Positions 940-15,074 of a DNA stretch of 49,951 nt are shown here, one piece after another. Position numbers and translations under genes: made by a program. How positions within the stretch are numbered: the first letter of the stretch is position 1; the number at the start of each line of letters is the position of its first letter. The notes beneath the pieces are model-generated. The model saw only the letters and a program-made list of their open reading frames with translations, did not search any database and had not been told where the DNA came from. The stretch spans positions 1-49,951 of the IMG/VR virus record IMGVR_UViG_3300021403_000003. The stretch is one strand, 5' to 3'. Source of the stretch: a virus.

Positions 940-1164
940 ATGACCAAATCATGGAAGATACCAAAAACCAACAAGGTGATTTCAATCACCTTGTTGGAGA
1001 CTTTACTTGGTGATTGGGGATTCATTATACTGGATCTTGAGATTGATTTGTTACTGAAAGGTGATCATTCCCCGAGTTTCAGAATTTGTTGGATTTTGAT
1101 GGAAATGGAGATGTTTGAATTTCGAATATACGACATAAGACAAAAGGAATATAACATCACATGA
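940..1164 (+). CDS. hypothetical protein with a hairpin in its 5' coding end
   Basis: Protein of 74 aa. I chose ATG at 940 because a GAAAGGA sequence lies 8-14 bases before it; a TTG six bases earlier is in frame. No recognisable domain; it is rich in Leu, Ile and Met in the middle. The coding sequence begins with a perfect 14-bp inverted repeat (968-997), which would fold into a strong mRNA hairpin just behind the initiation site and may limit translation. The stop overlaps the start of the kinase gene (ATGA). Confidence 0.5.
   Translation: MTKSWKIPKTNKVISITLLETLLGDWGFIILDLEIDLLLKGDHSPSFRICWILMEMEMFEFRIYDIRQKEYNIT
968..997 (+). repeat. perfect 14-bp hairpin inside a coding sequence
   Basis: Bases 968-981 (CCAACAAGGTGATT) are the exact reverse complement of 984-997, with only two bases between them; a 13-bp stem with a four-base loop is the likely fold. 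No T-run follows, so it is not a normal intrinsic terminator. It lies about 28 bases after the start codon of the 74-aa gene and upstream of the RNA-repair pair, where it could act as a translational brake or an RNA-processing site. Confidence 0.8.
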
Positions 1165-10855: not shown

Positions 10856-10927
10856 GGTCACGAAATGGTAGTAAACTGTTGATTAAAGGTGTTCAAGACG
10901 CGGGTGCAATTCCCGCCAGGTCCACCA

Positions 10928-11003
10928 ACAGCACACTTGGCCAGAGGTCATGACTGGTCGTTTCTTGATGATGCCGAAAGGCTAACTGGAGTGTGCTTCT
11001 GAT
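10928..11003 (+). other. tmRNA intervening segment removed on maturation
   Basis: The 76 bases between the encoded CCA and the mature 5' end GGGCCTG. AGCACACT (10930-10937) pairs exactly with AGTGTGCT (10990-10997), bringing the two processing sites together. In known permuted tmRNAs this segment is cut out by tRNA-processing nucleases, leaving two RNA pieces. Confidence 0.8.
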
Positions 11004-11087
11004 GGGCCTGACTAGCTTCGATTGGGCAAGTAATAACCCAATAGCTACCGGATTGGTGACTGCCCTAAGCAGCACAAAACGTTAAAT

Positions 11088-11147
11088 GCAAACGATACTG
11101 CATTCGATGAAGATGAAGGCTTTGTAGAGCTCGCTCTCGCTGCCTGA
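11088..11147 (+). other. tmRNA proteolysis-tag reading frame
   Basis: From the resume codon GCA (11088) the frame reads ANDTAFDEDEGFVELALAA and stops at TGA 11145-11147. AND at the start and LALAA at the end are hallmarks of bacterial tags, the end being the ClpXP/ClpAP signal. The middle is unusually acidic (DEDE) and the tag is rather long at 19 encoded residues. The bases TTAAATGCAAACGA around the resume codon resemble bacterial tmRNAs. Confidence 0.9.
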
Positions 11148-13377: not shown

Positions 13378-13472
13378 AAGTTTAGCTTATTCCATACTAA
13401 ATAATCCACTATATAATGATATATTGAATAAAACATACAGCACATACGACAAAGCATACGAGGTATATAACA
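13378..13472 (+). promoter_or_regulatory. gp32 leader with late-type box
   Basis: A 95-base AT-rich gap before gp32. It holds CTAAATAAT (TAAATA at 13398-13403), the recurring late-type box. It also holds TATAAT (13412-13417) without a convincing -35, so gp32 may be transcribed from its own promoter. No further gene is seen here. Confidence 0.5.
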
Positions 13473-14420
13473 ATGAGCGATTTCGCAAAACTCCGTCAAA
13501 AATCTTCCATTCAAAATTTGACAACTGCACTGAATTCACAGAACAAATTCAGCCGTGATGAACGTTATTGGGAACCAACTGTTGACAAGGCTGGAAATGG
13601 CTTTGCTGAGATTCGTTTCCTTCCAACACCTCCACAAGATAATGCAGATGGTGATGCACCATTTGTCACAATGTTCAGTCATTCTTTCAAAGGACCAACA
13701 GGTCAGTGGTACATTGAAAATTCATTGACCACCATTGGTTTGGATGATCCTGTTTCTGAACTGAATAGCAAACTCTGGAATAGTGGAGTTGAAGCAAACC
13801 AAAACAAAGCACGTGATCAAAAACGTCGCCTCGGTTACATCAGTAACATTCTTGTTGTGAATGATCCAGGCAATCCTGCTAATAATGGAAAGGTGTTCTT
13901 GTTCCGTTATGGTAAGAAAGTCATGGATAAGATTAAGGACAAGAATGGAACTGGAAGTGAAGTTAAACCAGAGTTTCAAGATCCAGATGATATCAAATTC
14001 AATCCATATAACCCATGGGAAGGTGCCAATTTTAAATTGAATATTCGTCAGGTTGATGGTTTCCGTAACTATGACAAGTCTGAGTTCCGTACCCCAAGTC
14101 AACTTGCAAAGACTGATAAGGAAATTGAGGTAATTTGGCGTCAACAATACAGCCTGAAAGCTGAAATTGCATCTGATAAATTCAAGAGCTACGATGAATT
14201 GAAGAAGAAATTAGAACGTGTTTTGGGTCTCACTAGCACAGGCACTTCATCTTCTACATCAAGTGCTCGTAGAACTGCAGAAGAAGTCAGCCATGAAGAT
14301 TCTGATCGTGAAGAACCTTTGGCAGCTTCTGTTGCAGCTGAAGTAAATACTGCAACAAAATCAACTACGAGTTCAGATGACGATGAATTCGCAGATTTTG
14401 CAAAATTGGCAGATGCTTAA
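13473..14420 (+). CDS. 32: gp32-type single-stranded DNA-binding protein, zinc site lost
   Basis: Protein of 315 aa (T4 gp32: 301). Matches across the core: 'GQWYIEN' and the 'ILVVNDPGNPANNGKVFLFRYGKKVMDKI' region, then 'PWEGANFKLNIRQVDGFRNYDKS', equivalent to T4 '[23 protein letters not shown]'. The N-terminus has the basic LAST-like motif, and the acidic C-terminus (DDDEFADFAKLADA) recruits partners in T4. The zinc residues are gone: T4 CPVC reads DPVS (91-95 region), and the first Cys is Ser84; only His70 remains. It coats ssDNA in replication and repair. Confidence 0.92.
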   Translation: MSDFAKLRQKSSIQNLTTALNSQNKFSRDERYWEPTVDKAGNGFAEIRFLPTPPQDNADGDAPFVTMFSHSFKGPTGQWYIENSLTTIGLDDPVSELNSKLWNSGVEANQNKARDQKRRLGYISNILVVNDPGNPANNGKVFLFRYGKKVMDKIKDKNGTGSEVKPEFQDPDDIKFNPYNPWEGANFKLNIRQVDGFRNYDKSEFRTPSQLAKTDKEIEVIWRQQYSLKAEIASDKFKSYDELKKKLERVLGLTSTGTSSSTSSARRTAEEVSHEDSDREEPLAASVAAEVNTATKSTTSSDDDEFADFAKLADA

Positions 14421-14424
14421 AAGC

Positions 14425-14453
14425 TTTACTTCTTGAAATGGTCAGCTTATAAT
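14425..14453 (+). promoter_or_regulatory. strong sigma70-like promoter for the post-gp32 RNA
   Basis: TTTACT (14425-14430) in GCTTTACT, 17-base spacer, perfect TATAAT (14448-14453). Transcription would start near 14460 and run through the minigene and folded RNA to the terminator at 14682. Confidence 0.72.
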
Positions 14454-14483
14454 GAAACTGTAGGTTGAGTTGTAAGCTGACCA
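14439..14483 (+). repeat. 11-bp inverted repeat spanning promoter and leader
   Basis: TGGTCAGCTTA (14439-14449) and TAAGCTGACCA (14473-14483) are exact reverse complements 23 bases apart. The left arm touches the -10 box and the right arm lies just after the predicted start, so it may be an operator. In RNA reading from gp32 it would be a hairpin; no T-run follows. Confidence 0.7.
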
Positions 14484-14498
14484 AACGAGGAGTCTAAC

Positions 14499-14516
14499 AT
14501 GCTTCCACGTAAGTAA
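14499..14516 (+). other. five-codon minigene MLPRK
   Basis: GAGGAG (about 14486-14491), a 7-base gap, ATG, then CTT CCA CGT AAG and tandem stops TAA TAA (14514-14519). The good ribosome site and double stop suggest real initiation. It could be a leader peptide for the downstream folded RNA or a minigene that ties up ribosomes or tRNA. Confidence 0.4.
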
Positions 14517-14639
14517 TAATTGAAATTTTCAAATTAAATATATAGTTGAACGCAGATAAAATGGGCATTCTGCTTACTATAACAAAAGTTGAAACCTTCT
14601 GCGGGTGAATTTTGTTATAGCTCAGAATGGAATAGATAG

Positions 14640-14682
14640 AAATGGGCCACGGCACGTCAGGGTGAGTGGTCCATTTATTTTT
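14640..14682 (+). terminator. intrinsic terminator of the small RNA
   Basis: AAATGGGCCAC (14640-14650) pairs with GTGGTCCATTT (14666-14676), 11 bp with one G-T pair, 15-base loop, followed by ATTTTT. Confidence 0.8.
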
Positions 14683-14710
14683 GGCATTGATTTTCTTGGA
14701 AATTCTCCGC

Positions 14711-14738
14711 TTTACTTTTAGAATTCTTACAGTATATT
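14711..14738 (+). promoter_or_regulatory. sigma70-like promoter for the 102-aa gene
   Basis: TTTACT (14711-14716) in CGCTTTACTTTT, 16-base spacer, TATATT (14733-14738); 27 bases before the start codon at 14766. It shares the GCTTTACT box with the promoters at 3240 and 14425. Confidence 0.65.
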
Positions 14739-14765
14739 GATGTCTACTGAAAAGAGGAGACTATC

Positions 14766-15074
14766 ATGTACGACCGCGACACCAAGTACTTTTATCTGAT
14801 TCATGGTAATACTGATATTTGTCAGGTCAGTGAATTCACTACCGATTTGACAGATGAACAGGCTCTGGAAGTCATCTATGCATTGAGTCAGAATCTGGAA
14901 GATGATAATTGGACAGTTGATGTCAAATACAAATATGGTTGTAAAGTCATCATGCGGGATTCAGTCCCACATCGTTCAACGGCTGTTGGTGATATGGTTT
15001 TGGTCAAACAAGGTGAGCATGAGAAGTTGTATCGGTGTGAAGTTGCGGGTTGGTTTCTTTTGCGCAACAAGTAG
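14766..15074 (+). CDS. hypothetical 102-aa protein
   Basis: Preceded by AGAGGAG. The N-terminal half (KYFYLIHGNTDICQVSEF, then 'DEQALEVIYALSQNLE') resembles small plasmid and phage proteins that pair a beta hairpin with a helix. The C-terminal half has 'RSTAVGDMVLV', a short SH3-like pattern. Function unknown. It stands alone behind its own promoter, converges with the tape-measure gene and ends in TAG. Confidence 0.65.
   Translation: MYDRDTKYFYLIHGNTDICQVSEFTTDLTDEQALEVIYALSQNLEDDNWTVDVKYKYGCKVIMRDSVPHRSTAVGDMVLVKQGEHEKLYRCEVAGWFLLRNK

Follow-up and report, generated by a model that had tools for sequence, protein, structure and literature searches.

In phage T4, genes e, soc, 49 and I-TevI are controlled by hairpins that occlude the ribosome-binding site (PMC3014915; PMC2988022). 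In these genes a promoter is located in or beside the hairpin, and long transcripts hide the Shine-Dalgarno sequence while short internal transcripts expose it; the internal promoter is late and a full protein is produced. I-TevI, moreover, possesses an operator that covers its own promoter (PMC2988022), and RNase E acts on the T4 gene 32 mRNA, one of the processing sites being near the stop codon (PMC3014915). The pseudoknot involved in gp32 autoregulation is situated in the gene 32 leader, some 67 nt before the start of gp32. In addition, T4 encodes in its tRNA region two small RNAs of unknown role, RNAC and RNAD. In bacteria, small RNAs derived from 3′ untranslated regions (3′ UTRs) and possessing an internal promoter have this promoter within the 3′ UTR and share a terminator.

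In this work we analyzed the region behind gp32 of a phage of the T4 superfamily. The virus record is 176,865 bases long, and the window is its initial 49,951 bases; positions outside the window are those of the whole record. The gp32 ORF has matches in 2398 phage records. Its closest named relatives (about 53% identity) are those of Stenotrophomonas phage DLP6, Sinorhizobium phages phiM12, phiM7, phiM19 and phiN3, and Methylophilales phage Melnitz; the best IMG/VR locus shows 56% identity among the searchable records, from which very near ones may have been left out. A non-coding gap of 345 bases separates the gp32 stop codon (14418–14420) from the next ORF (14766); in it, P1, hairpin A, a Shine-Dalgarno sequence with the MLPRK ORF, an AU-rich linker, element C, a terminator and P2 follow one another (Table 1). 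The sequence-only reading had described this stretch as encoding no normal protein, and indeed no normal ORF was found in it.

Table 1. Features of the gp32 region (window coordinates)
Feature	Position	Strand	Details
Late promoter CTAAATAA upstream of gp32	13397–13404	+	Score 12.3
gp32, single-stranded DNA-binding protein	13473–14420	+	PHROG 224, E 7.8e-100
P1, sigma-70-like promoter TTTACT-17-TATAAT (probable)	14425–14453	+	TTTACT 14425–14430, TATAAT 14448–14453; predicted start near 14460
Hairpin A	14428–14493	+	22-bp imperfect stem; overlaps P1; outer 14428–14435/14486–14493, inner 14439–14453/14470–14483
Shine-Dalgarno AGGAG of mini-ORF	14488–14492	+	Inside 3′ arm of hairpin A
Five-codon ORF MLPRK, then second stop	14499–14516	+	From sequence
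Possible pseudoknot CGCAGA/TCTGCG	14551–14603	+	14551–14556/14598–14603; P about 0.10 by shuffling
Element C, nested helices	14566–14629	+	7 bp 14566–14572/14623–14629; 11 bp 14577–14587/14610–14620
Intrinsic terminator	14640–14682	+	Stem 14640–14650/14666–14676, T-rich tail to 14682; z −5.5
P2, early-type promoter TTTACT-16-TATATT of 102-aa ORF	14711–14738	+	Leave-out score 15.7
102-aa ORF	14766–15074	+	Next ORF after gap; no known relatives found

Hairpin A is the strongest feature of the region and lies far outside chance. It begins 7 nt 3′ of the gp32 stop codon, and its fold of −34.1 kcal/mol (z −8.8) was matched by none of 500 shuffled sequences. An energy this low was reached by 11 of 58,932 windows of the genome (top 0.02%), which fall within six 100-base bins. 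Neither this hairpin nor the five-codon ORF with its standard ribosome-binding site had been noticed in the sequence-only reading. The motif AGGAG[AT]CTANN[ATG]TG, to which this site conforms, occurs four times in the genome, and the other three occurrences open ORFs of 78–800 aa behind early-type promoters. When the fold includes the sequence preceding the P1 start, the Shine-Dalgarno sequence is unpaired with a probability of 0.02, as against 0.32 without the 5′ arm; shuffled upstream sequences paired it equally well in 8 of 200 cases. Pairing with the mini-ORF would still occlude it to some extent in the P1 transcript (unpaired probability 0.32).

P1 contains the perfect TATAAT reported previously, 17 nt 3′ of TTTACT. 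With a promoter matrix rebuilt without P1 and P2 as seeds (leave-out test), P1 scored 11.9, whereas the maxima of simulated genomes were 15–19. This moderate score is not exceptional genome-wide; in a gap of comparable size it is expected 0.01–0.02 times. The two halves of the promoter differ: the −35 block is identical to the family consensus GCTTTACTTC, equalled at only two places of the genome and expected 0.0006 times per gap, while the −10 block scores negative with the leave-out matrix and its flanks do not fit the family. We regard P1 as a probable, not an established, promoter. By comparison, P2 attained about the maxima of simulated genomes.

The promoter family to which P1 and P2 were compared is characterized by the motif GCTTTACTT-N-TAT(A/G)(A/C)T, which recurs 5′ of genes, mostly at 64–82 kb and beyond 158 kb. 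We call it early-type, assuming its function from its likeness to T4 early promoters, and by this analogy P1 would be active early. A different motif, C[CA]TAAATA, defines the late promoters of this phage and is common to 31 upstream regions, including that of gp32, and many of these precede structural genes. Its T4 form, TATAAATA, is present just twice in the record. The late promoter at 13397 would yield transcripts running into the unit behind gp32. P1 itself lacks a CTAAATA-type motif, and the best late-type score in the gap is 6.4, as against 8–16 for the family. A late promoter directly 5′ of element C was considered and discarded, the scores there being weak (3.8 and 6.4).

The sequence elements, folding energies and promoter motifs found here can be combined as follows. 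Tentatively, and at somewhat less than an even chance, we propose that the 3′ UTR of gp32 contains an early-gene start cassette (P1, the phage-standard ribosome-binding site and an ATG), which is insulated by hairpin A in gp32 read-through messages. In these messages the 5′ arm would be present, fold onto the 3′ arm of hairpin A and hide the Shine-Dalgarno sequence. Transcripts from P1 would start within the hairpin loop, at about 14460, and would lack the 5′ arm, so that hairpin A could not form in them. Because only gp32 messages contain this arm, translation of the mini-ORF would be confined to the early P1 transcripts, and late gp32 messages would leave it silent. The P1 transcript would be about 220 nt long, end at the terminator common with gp32, and carry only the MLPRK ORF and element C. 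A further probable role of hairpin A is to protect or mark the gp32 mRNA at its 3′ end. From the sequence we thus infer transcription from P1, its early timing, silencing and mRNA protection.

Comparison with the T4 genes e, soc, 49 and I-TevI revealed both the common feature, a stable hairpin pairing with the Shine-Dalgarno sequence, here at a probable promoter with a predicted start in the loop, and clear differences. Here the internal promoter is early-type and not late, the incoming message is probably late, and no protein-coding gene other than a five-codon ORF is found under hairpin A. The unit resembles the T4 gene 32 leader in its structured RNA near gp32, in which a pseudoknot is possible and an A+U-rich single strand is present; here, however, element C and the possible pseudoknot are situated behind the gene, 131–209 nt from its stop codon, and the pseudoknot is at chance level. 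RNAC and RNAD resemble the putative P1 RNA in being small phage RNAs, but they are encoded in the T4 tRNA region. The bacterial 3′-UTR-derived small RNAs would resemble the proposed unit in their promoter and shared terminator. If the proposed mechanism is correct, hiding of ribosome-binding sites in read-through messages, as in T4, also serves early promoters, with two candidate places in this genome, and a replication gene with a promoter inside its 3′ UTR becomes accessible to testing.

The second candidate place is an early-type promoter at 176226–176300 (+) of the record, with a 13-bp hairpin covering the Shine-Dalgarno sequence of a 95-aa ORF. There, TTGGGCAGTCTCC between the −35 and −10 elements pairs with GGAGACTGCCCAA over the Shine-Dalgarno sequence; the layout is the same as that of P1, and the sequence is unrelated. 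The Shine-Dalgarno sequence is unpaired with a probability of 0.16 with the upstream region and 0.33 without it, and 10 of 200 shuffles performed as well. Since ten other early-type promoters showed no comparable Shine-Dalgarno pairing relative to shuffles, such hiding is not general among the promoters of this phage. Two of 12 tested promoters at about 4–5% are suggestive, a hint and not proof, and the main weight of the argument is carried by the hairpin energies at P1 and 176226 (z −5.8 and −5.1). Two further hairpins were observed in the record. At 67555–67606 (+), a perfect 14-bp hairpin lies shortly upstream of the Shine-Dalgarno sequence of a 111-aa ORF, which recalls seg43 of Aeromonas phage 25, where the hairpin is non-sequestering; at 968–1030 (+), an early-type promoter is located immediately 3′ of a perfect 13-bp hairpin without a T tract.

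The nested double stem of the sequence-only reading is element C. Both stems of element C, 7 bp and 11 bp, are indeed free of mismatches, and this nest is the sole one of its kind in the genome, with none in four simulated genomes. Thermodynamically the nested helix is unremarkable: its energy of −21.0 is reached by 3.5% of genome windows, and its z of −3.3, obtained on hand-picked bounds, becomes −2.2 on the wider interval 14546–14640. The terminator was confirmed, and it probably also serves gp32. For the whole RNA from P1 to the terminator (14460–14682) z is −1.9, barely better than shuffles. As element C and this RNA are weak relative to shuffles, most of the structural signal in the region is due to hairpin A and the terminator. 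The complementarity of the loop to the upstream CGCAGA, proposed to form a pseudoknot, is exact but arises in about 10% of shuffles; the alternative GCAGA/TCTGC pairing also exists (14552–14556/14569–14573) but only at chance level. With both at chance level, the suggested switch-like RNA was not supported, and in place of a ligand or replication switch the strongest structure, hairpin A, suggests that a read-through transcript is insulated from translation. An upstream copy of AAATGGGC (14559–14566) was considered as an antiterminator and rejected; it would pair with the 3′ arm of the terminator, leaving a stem before the T tract.

The search for relatives agreed with the earlier statement that no known family is recognizable: Rfam gave no match in 14380–14780 at gathering or relaxed thresholds. 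A blastn search against phages returned one 30-base chance match and nothing else. Exact-pattern scans of IMG/VR gave 7 hits for the loop, 17 for the upstream segment, 31 for the inner stem irrespective of its loop, and none for the mini-ORF or hairpin A; the nest with its outer stem was absent from all of the hits that were read. For gp32 itself, 29 of 80 loci were listed and their downstream stretches read where long enough, and none in this selection resembled the unit. Many of the relatives read have a plain terminator right behind gp32, often followed by an apparent convergent gene. These relatives lack the rest of the unit.

We take the intergenic unit to be real, ordinary in some respects and curious in others. 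A variation on a known phage control device seems to us the likeliest explanation, and a gene relic comes next. The insulated start cassette is supported by the −35 consensus with TATAAT, a ribosome-binding site of the type used by long ORFs, hairpin A, the parallel at 176226, the late promoter before gp32 and the precedents in T4; weighing against it are the ordinary genome-wide score of P1, the partial pairing of the Shine-Dalgarno sequence in P1 RNA, most promoters being without such pairing, and the failure of the searches to yield relatives that would show conservation. Besides, regulation of five codons has no obvious benefit. The layout, as at long early ORFs yet with five codons only, could also be that of a relic: an early gene would have lost its coding part, and its promoter, ribosome-binding site, ATG and a few codons would remain in front of the old gp32 terminator; element C would then be an incidental or leftover inverted repeat, and the RNA functionless. 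The bare terminator in many relatives agrees with this, and so does the 102-aa neighbour, also without relatives, as expected at a spot of gene turnover. We nevertheless consider it rather unlikely, since no coding remnant resembling any other gene of the phage was found behind the mini-ORF, and one would expect the perfect 11+7 helix and the strong hairpin A to have decayed.

It is less probable still that P1 drives a trans-acting or switch-like structured RNA gene with element C and the pseudoknot as its working part. A non-coding stretch of 220 nt flanked by promoter and terminator and the unique perfect nest speak for such a gene, but the fold of the P1 RNA, the rank of element C within only the top 3.5%, the chance-level pseudoknot and the absence of relatives by patterns, blastn or Rfam speak against it. 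Of the claimed self-contained RNA unit, the sequence supports a promoter and a terminator with no normal gene between them. Support for a new structured RNA family is lacking at present, and in that capacity the unit would matter only given relatives or a transcript. We see little probability in a mini-gene or regulatory RNA in the gp32 3′ UTR that is switched on early by P1 and off late in gp32 messages, in reversal of the T4 device, with element C as a functional small-RNA domain. A 22-bp imperfect stem such as that of hairpin A has the size of ribonuclease III substrates. This and the position of hairpin A just past the gp32 stop codon would suit a plain gp32 3′ UTR, in which hairpins A and C serve as mRNA stabilizers or as processing sites of ribonuclease III/E and P1 is unused; processing of the T4 gene 32 mRNA by RNase E is a precedent (PMC3014915). 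We think this improbable, as it leaves a standard ribosome-binding site, an ATG and a consensus −35 in one place unexplained. Finally, the inverted repeat around P1 might act at the DNA level, binding a repressor that shuts the promoter off; the repeat does overlap the −10 element, and T4 I-TevI offers an example (PMC2988022). This we consider very improbable: the 14-bp arms, the long distance between them and the match of an outer arm to the Shine-Dalgarno sequence fit RNA pairing better, and the hairpin at 176226 is unrelated in sequence, hence there is no shared operator.

Matches to known RNA genes were also found elsewhere in this genome. At about 159–166 kb of the record (L087, 9071–16501) there is a cluster of 28 tRNA matches, some of them partial. 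A tmRNA gene missed by ARAGORN is located in the window at 10867–11147 (+); it is a permuted two-piece gene matching RF04321 with 125 bits, and its tag frame, determined by eye, reads ANDTAFDEDEGFVELALAA followed by a stop. Aquatic phages, Melnitz among them, are known to carry tmRNA genes in two pieces (PMC9004378).
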